DNA of 64,000 nucleotides. Origin: Centroberyx gerrardi (Eukaryota > Chordata > Actinopteri > Beryciformes > Berycidae). A program made the position numbers and the translations under genes. Location: positions 4,946,602 to 5,010,601 of the forward strand of contig NC_136013.1 of assembly GCF_048128805.1 (NCBI RefSeq). The letters are read 5' to 3'. The number at the start of each line of letters is the position of its first letter. Positions within the stretch are counted from its first letter, which is position 1. The notes under the pieces were generated by a model. That model was not told the origin of the DNA. It did not search any database and saw only the letters and a list, made by a program, of their open reading frames with translations. Shown here in pieces: positions 1-60,466 of the stretch.

Positions 1-3000
1 TAACAGCAGAAATCATAGACAAATTGTGGATGATGACCTTTTTTATGCACGTTATCATCACCGTATTTATCTATGTAGAAAGCAGCCATGCAAAACCTGA
101 ATTGCTCTAATTACTGAAAGTCTAATTAGCCTTGCTTATTATTCATGACCAACAAAGAACGAGACACTTTAACCAGCATGTACACTGCATCCCCGAGTCT
201 TAACTGTCAAGAGTTTTGCATGTCATGACGAGCACAACGGGGAAAAAATCCTCAGTGATTTAATTCAGGCTTAACGTGTCTTTCAAGCCATCAAATCAAA
301 TTTTAAAAAGAAAGGAGGAATCCTTGGTTGAAGTGCTTCGGGGAGACAACACGGCTCAAACGCACCCAGCAGCGGTCTGCAATGAAATATTCATTATGTT
401 TTTTACTATGCGTTTCAAAAGTCATCAAATCAATAAAATAAAATGGACAATCCTTGATAGACACCCCAGTGTTTTGGGTGGGCTACCTCGCTCTGGTGCA
501 CCCGCCAACAGTCTGCAAGGAGACATTCACCATGGTTCATACGATGCTCGGGCCTGTCTGCCATGTGCTGGAGGCAGGGAGGAGGACCAGAGGAGGGCAT
601 GGTGAATAATTCAGTGCCACTCTACTCTTACAACACACGCAAGCTCAAACTACAAAGCTCAGAGAAGATGCAAACAATTACACAGCCTACATTTCCTGTA
701 CAGGAGCACTCATGACGAATGAAGCTCCCAGGAAGGCCGCTGCCAAAACTTGTTAGCGTTACGCTTATCTGAGGTCAAGTATTGCTTTGCTGAAACAAAA
801 CCTGCGAGTGCTGTCCATGGTTTTCATTGATTGTGTGTTATGCAGCCTACATTGCAAACTACGCAATAAAGAGGACATCTGTGAGAAGTGAGGAGCTTTG
901 TATGACCTGGGATGGCTACTAAATGGCTTCATCATTAGCTGGGAAGAACAGAGTAGCCGAGACGTACGCTGAAAGAGAAGTAGCCTAAATCGAAGGGGCG
1001 AGCACTGATGTCATCCCTCCTGGTGACAGGGACGCTGCCTGACTCAGAGACGGATGACAAACAGGAAGTCTTCTGGGGCTCGCGGATTGTGTGTCCAGCG
1101 GTAACAAAAGCCTTGCAAGACCTATTACCCGCCTGTCGTGTATTGGCTATTAGTTTACAGGTCTACAGATGCATCGCAGAGGTCCAAACCCCAACATCAT
1201 AACACCAATGTCTAGCCTGGGGGGCATCGGAGCCGAACAAAGAGGCAACAATTCAGACAGAGGAATGCACCGCCGAAATGGATTAGAAAAACCCCCCATT
1301 CAGAGTAGAAATCTACATCGGGACAGATGACAGAGCGAAACAAATTGATCAGACACAACAGAAACAATGGCGCACAGATCAAAACAGCACTAACTTGACA
1401 CAACAGTCTGGCCTATTCATTCACCCATCTGGGATGTATACACACACACACACACCTCTCGAGGTGAGGTAGTGCACACTCACCCGGGTGTACGTGTGCC
1501 TCCTAGTCTGTGACATGTTTCCTGGTCGCCGAGCCCCCCGTCGGCCGTCTTGACTGAGGGAGCGTGTTATTGGGGAGAGCGTCGGCCAGACACAAGGGGG
1601 TCGGGGAGAGGGGTGGGGGGGGGTTCGGTGATGCCGCCGGAGCGTCTCTCTCTCTCTCTTCCTCTCTCTCTCTCCTTACAGATCACACCATCCCTCTCCT
1701 AATCCTCACAGTACAGTCTGGGCTCTCCAAACTCTCCGTTTCTCCTCTCTGCTGATCACAGGGGGGCCGGCGGTGGCCCGGCTCAGTCTGGGAGCTTCTG
1801 AGGACAGGCGCTCCCCCCAATCCGCCTCGCCGGGCCGACTTCGCAAGGGGATGAATGGGCCGAAAAGGAAAACAGAGCAGAGAGGGGGAAAAAACGAGCA
1901 GGCTCGGTCTGCTGTGAGTGCATCAGCTGAGCGGCAGCACTGCGCTAGTGTCTGCGCTGGCTTCTGCAGGAGGGAGGGTGGTTTAGGCCCAGGCGGCGGT
2001 GCTGGGTCCTAAAGCCTGCAATATGCCTCTCAAAAGCATATCAGAAACTGGACAGTCATTATTCTCATGCTTAATCCTCAGAATTTAGCATGATGCAGTC
2101 GTTTGGACTTGTTTTCTTCAGCTTTATGGCTGATCAGAGAGAGCTGACAGGCAAGACTTCTCACAGTCCAGATAAGTCCAATCGTCAAAGTGTATTCCTG
2201 CTAAAATCCTCCAATAATCAATAGACTCATGAATGATCGGTCACCAGAAACACTCTTTGAACTGTTTTGATAGCCATCAACGCAACAAAGCAGCATCATA
2301 CAAGATGCCAGATGTATCCAGAAACAATGCTCTCTCTGCACTGCAGGCTGTTTCATTTTCATTTCATTTCAAGTTCTTCAAAAACCATTTCACTTCCTCT
2401 CCCCCCTGTTAAAAGCACGACTGCTGGGACAAACGAATTACATTTGGCCTAGAAATGAAAGACGTGAAACACAGGTAGTGAGCCTTTTTCCACCGGGGGA
2501 AGGTGAACCGGTTCGATTCCACTTCATTGTGGTTTGACACAAAAGGCCCAGGTGACGCGCCATCATGCAGCACACTGTAAGTAAAGGCCTGCAGATTGCA
2601 TTAGGGCCCAGCCTGATGGTTTGGCAGATCACAGAAGCAGGATTAACACTCTTTTATGAGCTAACTGCGTGGCTGGGGCTTTTTCACTCTCAATCCTCTA
2701 TTCATGTGTTGTCGGGGTTTTTTTGCAATGGAAGCAAATGCTGCAGGGCTTCTGTGTAAAAGGTTTCAGCATCGAGGCTGATGAGAGAGTTTTGTTTTAA
2801 CAGGATGCATTTCAGCAGCTGAACCAAAGGGACCAAAGCTTTCAGGAGAGGGAGATACATATCTGCCTAATAATGCATCAGTCGTAAAGCCTCAGCAACA
2901 AAGCTTGGGCCAGGCTGATATATTGTGGGGTTTGTAGGCTTAGTATATCCTACACACATGGATATTCTGACAGAATCATGTAAGCCCGGGCCTTTTGAAC

Positions 3001-7293: not shown

Positions 7294-7968
7294 TCAGTCC
7301 CTTTTCCGATCTTGCTGTAAATCTAGTCTGTACTCAACCAGGGAGAAGTTGGTGATTTTGGCAACAAGTTCAGGAATGACAAACTCTCTTATCTTGTCGT
7401 AGCCCATGTGTTCGTAAAGCTTCTGAGCGTCTGTCTGCACCACCGAGGTGTACAGGACGACGGCCGCGTAACCCCTCTCCCGCGTAAAATCCGCTACCGT
7501 CCGACACAGAGCCTTGGCGATGCCCATCCCGCGGTGCGTCCGGCGCACAGACATGCGCTTCAGTTCCAAGCAGCCCGACACCTTCTCAGCGGGCAGGCAG
7601 GCCACCGTGCCGACCACCCGACCCTCGCTCTCAGCCACCCAGAAGCACGCGTCCTTCTGCTCCAGGTAGGTCTCCCCGATGTGGTTGAGGTCCTTCTTGA
7701 GGGACGTGTCGATGTAGCTGGAGAACATGTAGCCGACGAACTGCCGCGCCCCCGCCAGGACGAGGGTGACGGCCAGGATGGGCAGCAGGAAGGACTTGGA
7801 GCTGGCCATCAGAGCGCAGAACACGCACATCAGCACCATCTGGGTGAGCGGCTGCTTCAGGAGGTGCATGAAGGACGAGGGCACGTGCTCGCTCATCCCC
7901 AGGGTGAAGATCTCCTTCACCGCCTCTGAGTCCTCGTCCCGGTACTTCCGGATCTGGATACTGGCCAT
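7294..7968 (-). CDS. nat8-like: NAT8/camello-like N-acetyltransferase, 224 aa
   Basis: This is a GNAT-fold acetyltransferase of the NAT8/camello type. In that family the enzymes are anchored in the ER or Golgi membrane and acetylate cysteine conjugates or protein lysines; the substrate of this copy cannot be read from sequence. The coding region is a single exon. The start MASIQIRKYRDED is chosen because it matches the family N-terminus (short lead, then IRKY); an ATG 29 codons upstream at 8055 is in frame but adds non-family residues. A hydrophobic stretch lies at about residues 41-75, the family motif CFWVAESEGRVVG at 108-120, and the acetyl-CoA loop RRTHRGMGIAKAL at 142-154. Length fits the family (about 220-230 aa). 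A minus-strand AATAAA (read as TTTATT at 6978-6983) could end the transcript. Identification to family is firm; orthology to one NAT8 paralogue is not. Confidence 0.88.
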   Translation of the reverse strand: MASIQIRKYRDEDSEAVKEIFTLGMSEHVPSSFMHLLKQPLTQMVLMCVFCALMASSKSFLLPILAVTLVLAGARQFVGYMFSSYIDTSLKKDLNHIGETYLEQKDACFWVAESEGRVVGTVACLPAEKVSGCLELKRMSVRRTHRGMGIAKALCRTVADFTRERGYAAVVLYTSVVQTDAQKLYEHMGYDKIREFVIPELVAKITNFSLVEYRLDLQQDRKRD

Positions 7969-8055
7969 GATGCGGCACCGTCTTTCAATGAAACAGTAAG
8001 ACAACTGTGAGAGCTGACAAACTACGGAGTTGCCAATCACATACTTAAACATCAT

Positions 8056-29600: not shown

Positions 29601-32600
29601 ACTCACCTCTTGGACGATCGCCCTTATGTTGTTCACATACAGCGTCACGTAGTCCTTCAGGTAGGTGGGCTTCTGGGAAACGGGGATGCTGAACCAGTCT
29701 GTGGCCAAAGCAGCCTCATTCTCATTGTTCCCACTCCAGACCACGATGGAGGGGTGAGACTTCAGCCGCCTCACCTGGTGGAAAAACATGAAACAAAACT
29801 CATTTACATTGTCACATTGTCTGTATCATCACATTTACAGTTGGCGTGCAGCTAGTCAACTAGTCTCTTTAAGTGCTTGTTACAAAGCTATTGTTACCAT
29901 TTTGGAGCCTGTGAAGAGACAAATATCTAAAAGTCGACTTAGCTAATATCACGACAGGCTGAAAAAGTATAAAATAGATGTTTCGATTTGGTTAACTGAC
30001 AATCTAAAAATGTAATTCGGATAAAAATCTGAGAGTGTAATACCCCGCTTGCATGCTTTCTCCAAGTTTTTCCCCTATTTAGCCCTGTCTTTCCATGTGT
30101 ATCTAGAAAATGACACCTTCAAAAGCCTTCAGAATAAAAGCATGCAGCTCACCTGCTGGATAACCTCCTCTCTCACTGTCTGTATGAAGTCATCCTCCGT
30201 GGGATACATGGCACAGGCAAACATAAAGTCCTGCCAAATCTAAGGACAGATATTTAAACATGTTAGCATCTATCTGTTCTGAAATATGCCTGTAATTCAA
30301 AGCGTTATGCAATCAAAATCCCACAGAAATATAACAATATGTAACAGAAATGGTGGGGATAGTTTTAGCTTTGGGGATAGTTTTAGCTTTGGCTCCATAT
30401 TGTCCCTTTTGTGGATAAAGTTATATTTTATCATAATTAAAACATAGCATTTTTAAACAACAATATATCACTGTCAACTGAATTACCTTGGTATAATTAC
30501 TGTAAACAGCCTCTATCTCACACCAGTGGTATTATTAGTGCTTATGTTTCTCAAAATTAAGACCACATTTCCCATAAACCCTGTTGCTTCCCCCCCCCCC
30601 CCCCCCCCCGTAGTAGTAAGTCTATATTCGTATCACTGAGGGCCGACAGTAGTTACCATGATTCCCATCTCATCACAGATGCTGTAGAAGAGCTCCTGCT
30701 CGTACACGCCTCCTCCCCACACTCTGAGGGCGTTCATATTTGCATCCACAGCAGACTGCAACAAGTTCCTCAACCTGCAGGACACACAAGAGCCGGTCAG
30801 CCTCAGCAGTATACATTCATAATAGGGACGCATGATATATCAGCAGACTATCAGCTTTAAAAAGCGATATCGGTACCCATATTATTTTTACTACCAATAT
30901 TTAGCCGATTGTGGCATTTTTGTGACCTTTTTTCTCGGAGTGACGAGAGAGTCACTGAATACAACTGTCAAATTAGCAACATAATAAAACTAACATGCTT
31001 AAAAAACACTTAATTATCTTAAGATAGGCATGTCTGAAAATTTTAACCTGTTTTGCACCTGCATTTGTACCAAGATCCTTACAAAAATGCATACTGGTAT
31101 CGGGCCAATATAGGTGGGAAAACATCGGATATCGTTATCACCCTAAAAAAAAAACATATCGGTGCATCCCTAATTCATAACTGAAACAAATGTGACTCAG
31201 AAGGGACTCAAAGAGGTGAAACAAGAGCAGGGTTCATGATCCAGTTGGATGCTGTGATAATGCTATACAAAGAGGAAAAACCGTTTCTGGAAATATTGTA
31301 TTAGTTAGTTGACTGACGCGGGAAAAAACTCATATGTTTTTCTCACACAGCAGGAGCGACTTGGTCCTGGAAGGAGTGGGCTGGGATCCAGTTGGAGCCT
31401 TTGAGGAAAACTGGTTTGCCGTTGATGCGGAAATAGAAGCTCAGACCTGGAGACCCAACGACTGGCTCCTGGACGAGTTCCACCGTGCGAAAATACACCT
31501 GCAGAACAGATGTTCATAAACATTCAGCTGCACTGAGAGTGAAGCACTTAAAGCTGCACTAGGCAACTTCACATGTTGGAATTTAAACTTCAATACTACA
31601 GAATTTCATTTGGGCAAATAGGGCGAATATACAGGGTCTCTATTAGAGGGGATGGGACGCTCTCAGTTCTCAGTTGCATTCTCTGTTGTATTTTTACATA
31701 AAATTCTTGCCTAGTGCAGCTTTAATGTGAAATATTTCTGAGATACTGTATATATCAATATTTTGTAACGACTGCCTGTTAGTTTTAAGTATATTCTGAT
31801 ATCCTTTTTGATGTGAAATTTAGCAGCTTGGGATGAAAGAGAAATTTCAGAAAAGTCTCTGAAGCATGTAACCTCTTCTCATGTTTTGACACTGAAGAGG
31901 TGGGGAGCTGTGGAGCGATTTAGGAATTTAAGCTCACTCTACTGTTGCACTTGCTGTACGTCACCCTGGATCAGTGTGTCAGCTAAATGCCTAGAGGGAA
32001 TATGAATGGAATGAAAGTGTAGATGGCTAGCGAGCTCCTACCTTGGAGTCTGCACTCAGGGTCAAAGGTCCATCCAGAAAGCCTCTGACAGTGAGCTGGT
32101 AGGAGGGCTGGTCACCGTGTCCACTGGGCCACCACAGCTTCACCTGGCTGCTCTGGGGAAATAAAAAAAAACACTCAAAGCTAAATATTTACTCAAAGCG
32201 GCACTGAAAACTGATTTTTAACTAGACAACAAAACTCTGAGATATTAAAGAGATCAACGCTGTCAAAACCCACGTATTTACCAGGGAGAGTCCCTTATTT
32301 TTAGATTTAATAACATTTTGATCCTTTTTGAAACGTTTTAGTAAGGCTACTGGTTGCACACATCTGATGCAGAAATACATAATTCATCAAGAAGAAACAT
32401 TTTGTGCTGGTGGACATTCCTTTCCAACTTCAAAATGGAAAACCTCTCATTTTCACTCTCTTCATCAGTACCGTGTTGATGTGCAGGGTGAAGGCGTTCT
32501 TGGTCTTTCCTGGGAGAAAGCGGGCCTGCAGCGTCTGTTCGGACAGCAGCTCCGGTACGGACAGCGTGACTCGCCCGTTTGTTTCCCGAACGGCATCAAC

Positions 32601-35600
32601 GAGCAGTTCGACCTGGACGCTCCACTGAGAGAGGGAGGAGTCTGGACACACACATGATATAGATTTAGACCATCATGGGGCACTGAAACTCTCCATTGAA
32701 AGCCATACTAATGCTTTTTTAGGTGGGTTCAGCTCGTTAAGGCAGGGTGAGGCAGAGTTTCACTGCAGGTTTTACAGTGACTGTTGAGTAAAATCCTCCC
32801 ACACCACACTGCAATGATTTCTCTGACTGGTCAATACTCCAATTTTTACTAAAAAACCAATATCGGCCCCATATATTGGGTTTGGCAAAGCAATACATCA
32901 GTCTGACACTAGCTGTGGTTTATCTTTTGTTGCTTCTGTCCTTACTTTACTATGGTTTACTAATGAAGGCCAACAAAGAGTTCAAATCTGACAGTCTGTT
33001 CACTCGCTTCATATTAATCACCGAGCAAAATCTATCATAAACTGCAGATGAGTGAACGGCCCAAAAAGTACCAACTTGCTGACTTTATATAGAAAGTTTT
33101 CATTTCACACACTCCCATTTGATAAGATTTTGTCCCATAGTGCAGTGGTTCTCAATGTGGGGTCCGGGGACCACCAGGGGTCCATGAGGGGGTTCCAGGG
33201 GGTCCCCAGCAAATTGATGAATTGTTAAATTTCAGCATTATTTTATTTATAAGAAGTTAACACAATTAGAGAATGTAGAAGAATGACTCTTGTGTAAATT
33301 AATTTGAGTCCAGGGATTGTGATTGTGATTATTGCATGTTGTGGGGGGGGGGGGCAATGGTCCAGGGTTCAAGTTATAGTGCAGGTTATGGGTGAGGGGC
33401 TGCATCACGATAAGCACTAATTAAATAAACATGCAGCTAAACTCTTTTTTTTATTTATTTCTTTACAGTACATTCTCTTTCTGAACCGTACCAACTTAAG
33501 CCCAACCAATTCAGAAGAACCACAATACTCTTTCCAAACACTCACTACTAACTGGAATTATCTTAAATCACATTACACTTCTTGTAATTAAACCCAGAAA
33601 ATATACTTTTTACACTTAACTGAAGCTAGCCACATTAAAAAATTAAATCTAAAACACACAGCATCTTTGACAGTCCAGTCAATCAAGTTGGAACTTGGAA
33701 CCTCACTAACTTCATACAGTGTGGTGTCACAATGAGAACAGTGAAAGCTCTATGATGTTACAATTCCAAGTGCAGCAGCCCACAGAGGCATTTCACTTTT
33801 TGGCGCGATGGAGGCGATACACAAAAGAAAACGAGACAAGAGGAATAATTACATGGAGGTACAGCAGAACACAGAGCCGGAGGATGCCCAGGTAGGCTCC
33901 GCCCACAGCACATCAAGGCAGACCTACCTGGAATTCCCTGTGGAGAGGAAGACTGGGCTCCTGAACCCAGTCTCCAGCAGCGAGGAACATCTGCTGTTGA
34001 TAGAGGCAGAACAACATTTGAAGCTGGTTCTGGGCCTGGACTCTTCTGCCCAGATGCAGGAACAGACCCAGACCCGGCAGAAATGGAGCAGGCAAGAATA
34101 TCAGACGATGAGAGAGGCAGACGAATATGTTAGGAAGATTCTGGACCTGGACTCTTCTGACCAGAACCAGTTCCAGTTCATGTTCCTGGGCCTGGCCGAA
34201 CAGGCTCAGGCCCAGGGACTGGTCGAGAAGAAATGGAGCACCCAGGAACATCTGATGATGATAGAGGCAGAAGAACACTTCAAGCTGGTTCTGGGCCTGG
34301 ACTCTTCCGCTGAGAAGCAGGAACAGACCCAGACCCAGAGGAAATGGACCAGCCAGGAATATCAGATGATGAGGGAGGCAGATGAACATCTTAAGGAGAT
34401 TCTGTACGTGGACTCTTCTGCCCAGAACCAGGTCCAGTTCATGTTCCTGGGCCTGGCCGAACAGGTTCAGGCCCAGGAACAGGCCCAGGAAAAGGCCAAG
34501 GAAAAGGTCCAGGACCAGGAACAGAACCAGGAAAAGGCCCAGGAAAAGGTCCAGGTCCAGGGAAAGGCCAAGGAAAAGGCCCAGGAAAAGGTCCAGGTCC
34601 ATGAACAGGCCCAGGAAAAGGCCCAGGACCAGGAACAGAACCAGGAAAAGGCCCAGGAAAAGGCCCAGGAAAAGGTCCAGGTCCAGGGAATGGCCAAGGA
34701 AAAGGCCATGGAAAAGGCCCAGGACCAGGAACAGAACCAGGAAAAGGCCCAGGAAAAGGTCCAGGTCCAGGAAAAGGCCCAGGAAAAGGCCATGGAAAAG
34801 GCCCAGGAACAGGTCCAGGAAAAGGCCCAGGAAAAGGCCCAGGAAAAGGCCATGGAAAAGGCCCAGGAACAGGTCCAGGAAAAGGCCCAGGAAAGGGCCC
34901 AGGAACAGGCCCAGGAAAAGGTGCAGGAAAAGGCCAAGGAAAAGGCCCAGGACCAGGAACAGGCCCAAGAAAAGGCCAAGGAAAAGGTCCAAGTCCAGGC
35001 CCAGGTCCATTCCCATGAACAGGCGCAGGAAAAGGCCAAGGAAAAGGCCCAGGACCAGGAACAGACCCAGGAAAAGGCCCAGGAACAGGCCCAGGAAAAG
35101 GCCCAGGAACAGGCCCAGGAAAAGGCCAAGGAAAAGGTCCAGGTCCAGGCCCAGGTCCATGGCCATGAACAGGCCCAGGAAAAGGCCAAGGAAAAGGCCC
35201 AGGACCAGGAACAGAACCAGGAAAAGGCCCAGGAAAAGGTCCAGGTCCAGGCCCAGGAAAAGGTCCAGGTCCAGGCCAAGGAAAAGGTCCAGGTCCAGGG
35301 AAAGGCCAAGGAAAAGGCCCAGGAACAGGTCCAGGAAAAGGCCAAGGACCAGGACCAGGAACAGGCCAAGGAAAAGGCCCAGGAACAGGCCCAGGAAAAG
35401 GCCAAGGAAAAGGTCCAGGTCCAGGCCCAGATCCATGCCCATGAACAGGCCCAGGAAAGGGCCCAGGAACAGGCCCAGGAAAAGGCCAAGGAAAAGGCCC
35501 AGGACCAGGAACAGGCCCAAGAAAAGGCCAAGGAAAAGGTCCAAGTCCAGGCCCAGGTCCATTCCCATGAACAGGCCCAGGAAAAGGCCCAGGAACAGGC

Positions 35601-38600
35601 CCAGGAAAAGGCCAAGGAAAAGGTCCAGGTCCAGGCCCAGGTCCATGGCCATGAACAGGCCCAGGAAAAGGCCAAGGAAAAGGCCCAGGACCAGGAACAG
35701 AACCAGGAAAAGGCCCAGGAAAAGGTCCAGGTCCAGGCCCAGGAAAAGGTCCAGGTCCAGGCCAAGGAAAAGGTCCAGGTCCAGGGAAAGGCCAAGGAAA
35801 AGGCCCAGGAACAGGTCCAGGAAAAGGCCAAGGACCAGGACCAGGAACAGGCCAAGGAAAAGGCCCAGGAACAGGCCCAGGAAAAGGCCAAGGAAAAGGT
35901 CCAGGTCCAGGCCCAGATCCATGCCCATGAACAGGCCCAGGAAAGGGCCCAGGAACAGGCCCAGGAAAAGGCCAAGGAAAAGGTCCAGGTCCAGGCCGAG
36001 GTCCATGCCCATGAACAGGCCCAGGAAAAGGTCACAGAACAGGCCCAAGTCCAGGCCCAGGAAAAGGCCCAGGATGAAGAAACCAGAATCACGGCCGCGA
36101 AGAAAAAGAAGAAGAAGCGTAGCTTGCTGCGTAGACTCGCTGATGCCCTTACTCCGAAACGCAAGGAGAAAAAGAAGAAGAACAAGGAGGACAAGATGGA
36201 GCCAAGTTCCAACTTAGACTCCAACAAATCCTCCAATACTTCAATGTGAGCACATTGACACCTGTGCTCACACACACATACACGCACACACCCAACCCCC
36301 CTCCATCCATTTTCAACCACCCCCTTACATCCCCCAAATTCCCACAAACCCCTTGCGTTGTATTTTTCTTCAATAAAAGATATCAATAATGATATCGAAA
36401 ATAATGTGCTGCCTGTATAGTTTTATTTCTGTAGAGATTTGCAAGTTCCACTTCAATAGTGTATGCGTAACTAGATTCACTATCAATTGTTTGTGTGGTT
36501 TTTCTATTTAAATGCTGTTAAAAAGAGGGCCTTGTCTTCTCTCCTAAACAATCAAACTCAGAAATGGAAGTGGAGCTTCCATGTTACGCTACATTTATCT
36601 CATCCTACTCATATAATGCAGCTCTAAAAGAAGTCTTAATATATTGCTGAGGTTTGATATAGATGGGTATATTAACTTTGCAATAGGGGGGGTGACATTC
36701 GATGTGACTCTAACACATAACCCTAACCGCCCATAATTACAACCAATAGAAAATAATGAGAAAAAACAGGAACAAAACTTAAATTCTTAAATTGTCAACA
36801 TTATAAGCAACCAAATACTAAGGTTAAGGAAAGAGGTGTTTATTAAAGAGCAGACCTGAGTCAAATAGTATTTTCAAATATTTCCCACGTTGGTTTTAAT
36901 CTGTGTTGGGTGCCAGATGGGTGGGGTTTAACATGTCAGGACAGTTCAGACAGTGTCAGCCATCAACTGAGCTGTCCATCACAGATGCCAAAGTGACTTT
37001 TGAATACTTTCCTACAGTAGTCACAACTTTCTGGCAGTCATCCTGTGGAAGCCCCGCCCCTCTGGCACCTCAGCAGGCTTCAGCAAACAATGACCAGTAA
37101 GAACCAAAGGTGACTTTTAAAGGCAACCCCATTTGTTTAGCTATTGCATCTTGTATAATTGCCTTTATCAGGGTGCACCGAGCAACAGCCAAATAAATAA
37201 AGACTTCTTGATAGTTTCAGAGTACACACTTCAAGCCAAAGCAACATTCCTTTTCTTTTTCTATTTTTAAACTAAGGAAAGTTTTTGAAAATACTATTTG
37301 ACCCAGCTCCGGTAGAGAGAGAAATATAATAAGAGTGATGGTAATAACAAAGTGAGACGTACTGTAGAGAGGAACAGAGGAAACCTGGAAGAGCTGCAGC
37401 ACATCAAACGCCTCCAGCCGAACTCCCTTCCACAGCCCCATGGTGGGGAAAGAAGGCCCCCAGTCCCAGCTGAACGAGCTTTGTTCCTACACCAAAACAG
37501 AGTTATTAATTCATATTTATATGTAGAGTGAAGTGTATGGTCTACTGTCTATCATGTGTCTTTAACTGTCCTCTTTGCGCTATTGTCTGTGTGTTTCAGC
37601 ATGCACTGTGTAACTGTCAATATGTCTTTAACATCAGGATACGTTACATATTTATTATATCCAGTTTTTTAATCTGGATTAGAATTATACAGTTTTTCAA
37701 ATCTGCTTGTTTGCAATCTAGGATTTGACTGATCTTGCTGATTTTGAGCCAGTTCCAAAAACATCATCAGATAGGATTAATCTGATCCAGATGCCACAAG
37801 AGTAAACTAGATGAAAAAGTGTAATAGACAGTTTGTACAGATTGTGTGTTGCTTTTGTTCATTTATCTGCAGAAGTATACAATGCATAAGAACTGAAAGA
37901 GAAAATTCAAAACCTCATTGAATAGCAAAAATCGTTCAATAATTAACTATATAACTTAACTGAAATAACTAACCCATTTCTGCAAAGTCTGTTTTCATTC
38001 ATTAACTCAAGGACTCTTTTAAAAATAAAGGTTCACAAGAGCGTCTCTTTTGTCCGCCCAGCTGGTCCATCCTGCTGCAGCTTGACTGAAGGCAGAATTG
38101 GATCCAAATCCCAATCTGAATTATCCGAATCTCAGTTATCAGTTTTGAAAAACCCAATTTTCAGATTTAATGCAATCCGATTGCTGAAATCCTATCAGAA
38201 AGGTTTGGGAAAAACTGAACCCTGGTGAATAAAACGGATCTGATTCTGACTCGGACAGTTCAGGCGTCCAGAGGCAACCCTCTAAAAACCAAAGCACTCA
38301 CTTTCCTGATGAAGTTGACATGACACTCCCCCTTCTGAACCTCTGGGGGGCATTCGGGGGGAACTCTGTAGGCAGAGTGGGCTTTCCTCCGGTCAGAGGC
38401 GTAAAGCACAGGAGACAGGAAGCTAACTCTCAGCACATTCTCCCCTTCCTTCAGCAAGTCTGTGACGGGGAAGTCCTGCACACCAGGAAGAGCAGCCATT
38501 TTAAAGAAACATGCACAAATGACACTCCAATGTAGGGCTGGGCGATCAATATCACAATATATCGATATATATCGCGATATGGCTCTCGTATGCAAAATCA

Positions 38601-44748: not shown

Positions 44749-48993
<4,245 letters not shown>

Positions 48994-50194: not shown

Positions 50195-53100
50195 TCACTG
50201 TTTCTCTGTGCTTGTGCAAGAGAAGGTGGCATCTGTGGGCGGCGAGGGCATCCGCGGGACAGATTTGGCCTCTCCGAACCGGTCCAGGTCCAAGTCTGAA
50301 TGTGTGCTGTGCCCTTTTCGATAGCGACTTCGAGGACTCCTTACACTGTCTAGTAGTTCTGTGTTTTCATTGCTTGGTTTGATAGACATTTGGCTCATAC
50401 CAGATGAGAAAGCTTCCGGATGTTTGTCGGTATCATTTCCTTCTGGTGAATCAAGACTGTTCCATGATTTACGTGTCCCATCCCTGGCTGCTGTCTGACC
50501 AGCAGCATTTGATGCCCAATTCTTCATTATTTGGGTCTTTCGAGTTTCCTCAGGCAGTATTGCATCAGATCCATTTTCACACAACTCAGTCAAGTCATTT
50601 AATTCACTGCCATCGACAAAGTCCAGTTTAGTTATCGCGCTGTCGCCGTTTTCCTCATGGCTCTCACGGTTACCATCGCTTTTTCGTCGTGCTGTACGAG
50701 AGGAAGCTGCGATGCCTTCAAGTGCTGCGCAAAGTCCAGCTCCCTCAGAATCAGATCTGCTCTCCGCATCGTCCTCGTTCACAGCAGCAGGAGTCGAAGG
50801 CGGCAGCGATGCGTCCGGCGTTTTAAAACTCACCCCGGCGTGTCCAGACTGCGTCTCACCGCTCTCCTCACCTGGGCTGTGCATGTTGTTAGGAGGAGTT
50901 TCACCCAGCGATGCGTGGGAACTAGAAATCCCCCCTGGAGAGCAGCTTGACACCGGGCTCACAAAGCCAACAAAGTCTCCACTGGAGCTGAATCGAAGAC
51001 CTTGGACAGCCTTCTTGCGAGGGTCGCCTGGCGAGTCGTCATCAGCGCCACCGCAGGCTCCGTCCCCGGAGCTCTCGGTCCTCTCCTGCCGCTCGGCGGG
51101 ACTGGGAGTAACCGGATCGCTTGGGGCCTCCTGGGCAGCGTTGTTGCCGGCGGTCTGATCTCTCTCTCTCTCTTGCGCAGCCAGATCCGGTCCCATGTCT
51201 CTCTGAGACGGTGCGGCCTGAGCGTCGCCTGAACCCTGACTCGGACCCGGCGTTGTGGGTCGGACCGCCTGGTGGCACATGGGACAGGTCTCCTGTACGT
51301 ACAGCCACTTGCGGAGGCAGTTGCCGTGGAAGAAATGTCCGCAGTATGTGATCACAGCAGAGCTCATTTCCTGTGGAGAGAGAGCGAGAGAGAGACATGT
51401 TTGACTCAAAAAAACAACATGAAACACTCAAATTTCTCATATGAAGTGAACAGCAAACAGCAAGACTTGCACCTTGTCTACAACTGGTTACTGTTTGTGT
51501 TATTAGTTGTCATAGTTGTCCCCAGGAAAACACATAATTCACTGGTTTTAGCCAAAACCAAATGGTTCAAAGTCAGAGAATTTTGACCTGCACACGGAGA
51601 GGCGGGGCTAAGCGGGTAAAAACAGGAAAAACATGCTTCCCATCCAAACCATGTTTCGTAGATCACTGGTGAAGCAAATCTAAACATCTGTTTTATTTCT
51701 GTTAGCCTGTCACAATGTTAGCCATGTCAACTTTTACATAGGGAGTTAGTAAAGCTTTATTTATATAGCCCCTTTTAAAACGGGAGTGCTTCACAGAGAC
51801 AAAAAAGAAAAACAAAAAAGCAGCAGCAAAAAATGAGCAGTACATACAGAATAAAAACAAAACTGAACAAACAACAGAGACGAAATGAGCAGCATACAGA
51901 ATAAAACAAAACAACACACAACAAAGACAAAAGTGCAGTACATACAGAATAAAACAAAACAACAACAAAAACAAAACAACAATAGTTGTCCATCTCTGCT
52001 GTCAAGACTGTAAAATAGACAGAATCAATAACTTTGTACTGCTAAGAAGAATAAAAAAAATAGAGATGGGAAGATACATTGAAATTCAATATATCGCAAT
52101 ACAAAAAAGTGACAATACGCATCGTGGGCCGGGAAAATGAATGGTGATATCAGTTCCATTTTATTCTGCTGTAGTAATCACAAATGAGACACTTGACCAT
52201 CACAGTTTCAGAAGCTCTCCATCCAAATTATATTATTGTCACTTTCTAATGGCATTTTTACATTGTTATTTACATTCTAGTAAGCCAATGCCATCGCTAG
52301 AAAGATTTGTGTCTCAGAAATAAACATAATTCTGCACATAATTTTTATTTATTACATCGTATCACGGTTGTATCGAATCACGCACCCCATATCACGTATC
52401 GAAGCGTATCGTGAGATAAGTACATCGTCCCATCTAGGGCTGCAACTAACGATTATTTTCATTGTCGATTAATCTGTCGATTATTTTCTCGATTAATCGA
52501 TTAGTTGTTTGGTCTATAAAATGTCAGAAAATGGTGAAAAATGTCGATCAGTGTTTCCCAAAGCCCAAGATGACGTCCTCAAATGTCTCGTTTTGTCCAC
52601 AACCCAAAGATATTCAGTTTACTGTCATAGAGGAGTAAAGAAACCAGAAAATATTCACATTTAAGAAGCTGGAATCAGAGAATTTTGACTTATTTTTCTT
52701 ACAAAATTACTCAAACCGATTAATTTAATAGTTGACAACTAATCGATTAATCGATTAATCGTTGCAGCACTAGTCCCATCCCTAATAAAAAAGGCTGTAC
52801 ATCTATTATGCTATGATGATAATGTGACTAACCTGGAAGCAGATGGAACAGACGTCGTTGTGTTGCTGCAGTTGCTGCGCCGTGGCTCTGGGGAGGGAGT
52901 TGATCTTCTTGGCCGCTTCCTGTCTGAGCAGGAAGCTCCTCCAGCCGGACTGCGCTCTGAGCCAAACGTTGAAGTAGGAGTGGATGATGATGACGGAGGC
53001 GCCCATCCAGCTCCACTCCCCAAACAGAGACTCCCAGGTGCCGTACGCCACCACGCAGAGCGCCACCACAAACTCCAGCACCCGGCTGACGGCGTTCACC

Positions 53101-60245: not shown

Positions 60246-60279
<34 letters not shown>

Positions 60280-60466
60280 GACTACTACTACTACTACTGC
60301 TATTACAACTTCGACTACTACTGCTACTACTACTGCTTCTACTACTACTACTTCTACTGCTACTGCTAGTGATATTACTGCTTCTACTACTACTATTACT
60401 GCTTCTTGTAGTACTACTGCTGCTGCTATAACTGCTGCTACTACTACTACTAGCCTACTACAGTTA
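60245..60466. repeat. (CTA)n trinucleotide microsatellite, interrupted
   Basis: About 220 bases of CTA/ACT units with CTG, CTT and other single-base variants. Reading frames through it give runs of Leu or Val that are not real genes. Confidence 0.95.

Follow-up and report, generated by a model that had tools for sequence, protein, structure and literature searches.

A single-exon open reading frame antisense in a MANBA intron of Centroberyx gerrardi has many dispersed relatives, some of them between hAT-type ends

Results

An open reading frame antisense to the beta-mannosidase gene

The window analysed here is a stretch of 64,000 nucleotides from the fish Centroberyx gerrardi (contig NC_136013.1, positions 4,946,602 to 5,010,601). 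On its plus strand it contains a long single-exon open reading frame (ORF) at 33808..36249, referred to as the window copy below. It runs from ATG to TGA and codes for 813 amino acids; the open stretch from stop to stop comprises 834 codons. The start codon stands in the context GGCGCGATGG, and an AATAAA polyadenylation signal is located at 36372..36377 on the same strand, 123 bases past the stop codon. The minus strand carries ORF pieces with beta-mannosidase exons on either side, at 37217..37486 (upstream of the window copy on the host strand) and at 32430..32672 (downstream). A query of 206 amino acids, for which four ORF pieces around the window copy were joined by eye, matched the beta-mannosidase structure 6ddt with an E value of 1.2e-56. 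This fits an antisense position of the ORF inside a single intron of a host beta-mannosidase (MANBA) gene. Thus, the original prediction of an 813-codon single-exon ORF antisense in MANBA, followed by an AATAAA, agrees with the coordinates, the flanking exon pieces and the signal.

The encoded protein is built from several parts, all on the plus strand. A basic head (33808..33975) is conserved in the paralogues. It is followed by a 261-bp tandem repeat of 1.9 copies (33976..34477; Tandem Repeats Finder), in which four helix-type units of ~43 residues each were discerned by eye. The largest part is a 12-bp array of 134.8 copies coding for EKAQ-type repeats (34469..36074; Tandem Repeats Finder). 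The array is free of stops in four of its six frames; coding can therefore not be concluded from ORF length on its own. It has an in-frame higher-order period of 486 bp (162 codons), and one segment is present in two identical copies (35083..35497 and 35569..35983). On sequence grounds this in-frame duplication is recent. Comparison with relatives marks the junction ITAA|K at 36088..36102 as the site of a missing coiled coil. The protein ends with a lysine-rich tail of the SLLRRxxDALTP type, common to the family (36100..36249).

A structure model of the N-terminal part, computed from an alignment of 13 rows, was of low confidence (mean predicted local distance difference test score, 35.8; predicted template modelling score, 0.19). 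Each repeat unit has one of its four longer helices (residues 59-74, 95-111, 145-161 and 182-198), and a short helix is at 129-135. From its composition the product would be an alpha-helical protein rich in Q, E and K with basic ends. That the family product might be a nuclear or nucleic-acid-bound scaffold is a doubtful further guess from composition.

No known family was found, in agreement with what had been claimed from the letters of the window. In a Pfam scan no family scored over the cut-off with the window protein or with a distant relative, L020, and a search of the PDB with the N-terminal part gave no match. L020 had two weak PDB matches with E values of 0.017 and 0.26. Cornifin/SPRR (PF02389) was rejected for the window protein at 29.3 bits, below the cut-off of 34.8; its best stretch was in the low-complexity array. 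A viral origin was discarded as well, with 40 pattern matches in viral contigs and no relative among them. Neither the window nor the three relatives inspected (L009-L011) contained an RNA family at gathering score. Searches of the open-access literature listed no paper on the gene family.

A dispersed family

The window's own assembly (GCF_048128805.1; 778.9 Mb, 278 contigs) was examined by six-frame search. With the N-terminal 223 amino acids of the window copy as a query, 26 matches were obtained which, merged at 10 kb, correspond to 22 loci on 10 contigs including the window copy itself. With L020 as a query at least 89 matches at no fewer than 62 loci were found (best 77 of 131 candidates scored). 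The union of both queries amounts to about 65 loci on 23 contigs, a count that is possibly too low as the best candidates alone were scored. The genomic surroundings of the 22 N-terminal loci and of four others were read. The ends of the window protein had been considered unique and the ORF a stand-alone new gene. This was not supported: the N-terminal part contains the 261-bp tandem duplication and recurs at all 22 loci, the basic tail is a family feature, and about 65 dispersed loci, the window copy among them, are related to one another.

The N-terminal part of the window protein is 79-84% identical to those of L023-L029 and L009-L011 and 41-43% identical to those of L020 and L021. In a tree of 13 N-terminal proteins the placement of the window copy and L023 was not resolved; both stand beside a well-supported clade of nine (97/99), and L020 and L021 are distant. 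Among the loci found beyond the N-terminal set, L031 and L032 consist of a basic head, a long coiled coil and a lysine-rich tail, and L030 has a long repeat region ahead of the coiled coil. We read L030-L033 as the older architecture of the family.

Ten of the 22 N-terminal loci are intact from the N to the C end in one frame (the window copy, L020, L021 and L023-L029; L025 stops some codons early). Three more (L009-L011) are intact except for one insertion at codon 32, one (L016) is short and without the basic tail, and eight (L012-L015, L017-L019, L022) are truncated or broken. Stops or frameshifts in close relatives had been named as evidence that would speak against a gene. The outcome was mixed and, for the family as such, on the side of a gene: they are absent from the ten intact loci, and eight loci are damaged. 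The AATAAA signal is also found in L009-L011, L020, L023 and L024, and L025-L029 have AGTAAA instead. One of the damaged relatives, L015 (G000:C10, around 4149144), has an open repeat frame of 1854 codons.

A chance open repeat as an explanation of the window copy was rejected. Both of its non-array ends recur elsewhere, and in many relatives they are joined in one frame. The argument that this is not a purely random open repeat was borne out in that respect.

Selection on the reading frame

Of the 22 N-terminal loci, 13 entered the codon alignment and 12 the indel test. In the nucleotide alignment of the N-terminal coding part of 12 copies, all seven distinct internal indel events were multiples of three. 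The flanks of the window copy and L023 differ at 61 of 652 aligned sites and by 15 indels, 12 of which are not multiples of three. Six other flank pairs had 3 to 12 indels each, 3 to 10 of them not multiples of three. The ratio of nonsynonymous to synonymous substitution rates (dN/dS) of the window copy was 0.32-0.43 against L024-L029 and 0.40-0.52 against L009-L013. For the array, dN/dS was set aside, with 10 to 41 alignable codons per pair and seven pairs giving a result. Changes were also polarised and counted by branch, with P against the neutral expectation at transition/transversion weights of 1 to 3 and four ambiguous sites dropped. Within the clade of L024-L029 and L009-L012, 44 synonymous changes stood against 34 nonsynonymous ones (P 5e-12 to 3e-8). 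On the stem common to the window copy and L023 the numbers were 11 and 11 (P 0.002-0.016). Seven of seven coding indels in multiples of three versus three of 15 in the flanks, together with the 44 to 34 changes in the clade, argue that the family frame is under selection. Apart from the branch of the window copy itself, the alignments are a clear indication that purifying selection holds the reading frame of the family.

Flanks and hAT-type ends

Homology of the window copy to other family loci is not confined to the ORF. The homologous segment covers 5' flank, ORF and 3' flank and extends over 33452..36829 on the plus strand (by eye its 5' edge is perhaps at about 33400). The 5' flank was matched in 17 of the 21 other N-terminal loci, in some of them over a short distance, and the 3' flank in 18 of 21. 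As a query the 3' flank gave at least 71 matches (best 40 of 143 candidates scored). In several copies homology continues for hundreds of bases beyond the polyadenylation signal. The shared 5' and 3' flanks suggest that the family spread as DNA and not as processed mRNA. A family of processed retrogenes from one reverse-transcribed mRNA would account for the single exon and the polyadenylation signal. Yet in most compared copies homology reaches upstream of the start and far past the signal, beyond the limits of a transcript, and the target duplications that were found are of 8 bp and lie beside hAT-type ends. We consider a retrogene origin highly improbable and, as judged from these alignments, largely refuted.

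The homologous units of L025-L029 and L009 all stop at one point, ...GAGTACTTTTTCCACCACTG. The units of L025 and L028 start with CAGAGGTGGGATG. In L025, with the gene on the minus strand, CAGAGGTGGGATG ... CCACCACTG is enclosed by an exact 8-bp duplication, GTGGAGAG (L025:6406-6413 and 2074-2081). In L028, again with the gene on the minus strand, the same ends are enclosed by a different exact 8-bp duplication, AATGGATG (L028:6246-6253 and 1684-1691). The units of L027 and L029 start at AGATGACATTAG, and their target duplications match at seven of eight bases. Duplications of 8 bases and CAG...CTG ends are marks of hAT transposons. The hAT transposase domain is present in this genome; all 150 scored matches were over the cut-off (best 150 of 987 candidates). 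L025 and L028 also have in common an internal junction between an upstream repeat and the gene. They are on different contigs and have different duplications, which indicates that the composite moved as a unit. The open frames carried along comprise 678 and 633 codons, respectively. Thus, in two relatives a complete gene is enclosed by hAT-type ends, with exact 8-bp target duplications on the outside.

Near the window copy an abundant short repeat with a hAT-like end is located at 33143..33294 on the plus strand. With at least 1134 candidates in the genome (best 40 scored) it is not family-specific and was ruled out as an element end of the window copy.

An insertion at codon 32 of three relatives

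At codon 32, L009-L011 carry an insert that is a dispersed repeat in shortened form. It is bordered by a 12-bp duplication, CAGGTAAGCCCC (L009:1694-1705 and 2854-2865, plus strand), at the same site in L010 and L011. It begins with GTAAG and ends with CAG. By virtue of the duplication, removal of the insert at these borders by splicing would give back the exact frame, which makes it a candidate for a newly made intron. More than 300 of the 356 bases of the L010 insert were matched at 16 other places; at seven of the eight places inspected the repeat extends further upstream.

Other features of the window

On the minus strand at 7294-8055 a 253-amino-acid ORF contains a GNAT acetyltransferase domain (PF00583, E 2.1e-18); we take it to be NAT8-like. 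At 50195-51367, also on the minus strand, a 390-amino-acid ORF has a partial RING finger at its start (PF12678 and PF13639 over the cut-off) and probably belongs to a larger gene as one of its exons. ORF pieces at about 45669-47852 on the minus strand presumably resemble a ubiquitin-conjugating enzyme of the UBE2D type. Two further arrays were noted, an AAAG-type array at 46332-46626 and a CTA triplet array of 69 copies at 60246-60452.

Discussion

With a probability of roughly 0.85, the window ORF would be an old copy from a large family of protein-coding genes, each of a single exon, which are dispersed over the genome and spread at the DNA level. It would have entered the MANBA intron by duplication or transposition of DNA, its ends having since been lost. 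A start region and a polyadenylation signal of its own would have come along, and with these it could be transcribed separately from the host gene.

Several observations weigh against this. Some of the weakest of the 65 loci are supported by coiled-coil similarity alone, and possibly not all are true relatives. The loci for both frame tests were picked for readability, which biases them toward open copies. Between the window copy and L023 dN/dS is 0.66. On the window copy's own branch eight synonymous changes stand against 16 nonsynonymous ones (P 0.10-0.29, not significant), and on that of L023 six against 17, excluding one stop step (P 0.33-0.60, not significant). Of the six copies tested for target duplications, L026 and L009 have none adjacent to the element. 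Around the window copy none was found in the stretches searched; a single shared 7-mer is not at the edges. Lastly, the C-terminal coiled-coil motif is missing. Among the loci with a readable C-terminal frame, all 19 other proteins that could be followed to the C end have it, and the window copy alone of 20 is without it.

The site of this loss can be located. In the window copy DEETRITAA runs straight into the basic tail. Where it has this junction, L025-L029 and L011 have AETRITAALKHTEQ...LLE KKKK(K)K ahead of the tail. Counted by eye against L028, the window copy is short of 63 codons. In L016 the motif precedes the end of the protein; in the other proteins it precedes the basic tail. L023, by identity the closest to the window copy, has a different junction upstream and has kept the motif. 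With this loss a new architecture may have arisen, or decay may have begun.

Decay would mean that the family is real and the window copy a silent pseudogene, its frame still open by chance with the help of the array. We consider this quite possible, somewhat short of even odds. The counts on its own branch, which show no significant purifying selection, and the missing coiled coil are in line with it, as is an array open in four of six frames, and the eight truncated or broken loci demonstrate that decay does occur. Against this stands the intactness of the frame. If the neutral branch of the window copy since its split from L023 is set at half of the flank divergence of 0.10, the probability is about 4e-4 for an intact N-terminal part and about 5e-14 for the whole ORF. 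With a branch of 0.01, i.e. five times shorter, the respective values are 0.21 and 2e-3. These estimates are suggestive: indels were taken at the flank rate, low-complexity stretches included, and the window copy perhaps is a late copy. Given such low probabilities a silent window copy would have to be young or a late copy of an unsampled intact gene. That it still makes a functional protein is a tentative proposal, for which we would give rather less than even odds.

The preferred reading, a spread of protein-coding genes, has also to be set against that of a non-autonomous, selfish element, which would use its ORF for spreading itself and would not be a family of host genes. About 65 dispersed loci, whole family genes enclosed by hAT-type ends and target duplications, and the abundance of hAT transposase domains are compatible with this. 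Yet the proteins of the window copy and L020 have no Pfam domain over the cut-off, hence no transposase or reverse transcriptase, and hAT-type duplications were seen in four of the six copies tested (two of them exact), with none found in the stretches searched around the window copy. To us a selfish element appears quite unlikely. A more specific proposal is a vertebrate family of complete genes as hAT cargo, with purifying selection during its spread and a central repeat rebuilt in each copy, in which the window copy is a derived, coiled-coil-free member nested antisense in MANBA. As a whole, this scenario is unlikely.

By itself the window copy is of moderate interest: it is a family member by sequence, and what sets it apart is the deletion and its lying antisense. 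The surprise is not this ORF alone; it is that, within the family, hAT-type ends have moved entire genes which are under selection. If expressed, the family would be a sizeable gene set missed by domain-based annotation, as neither the window copy nor L020 has a Pfam family over the cut-off. It would also exemplify how hAT-type ends can move open genes in full length and with their flanks, in contrast to mere fragments, and would allow asking directly whether such cargo genes persist because they serve the host or because they serve themselves.

How does this compare with known systems? Trichohyalin and involucrin are repeat-rich proteins with short tandem repeats rich in Q, E and K, and the window protein shares such repeats with cornifin/SPRR (PF02389) as well. 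As to amplification, a transposon-mediated multiplication of a housekeeping gene, a DNA methyltransferase, has been described in fungi (PMC6710886). As in the family described here, that gene was multiplied through the genome by transposition; in the fungus some copies are reported to be inactive and several active. The amplified fungal gene is a DNA methyltransferase, whereas the present family is without a known domain and from a fish. L025 and L028 resemble the Pack-TYPE transposons, in which the ends of non-autonomous DNA transposons are reported to carry coding DNA to new sites (PMC8903248). Unlike these, the window copy has no such ends in the stretches searched. The Pack-TYPE transposons of that source are from plants; here, the genome is that of a fish and the cargo a complete open gene together with its own flanks.

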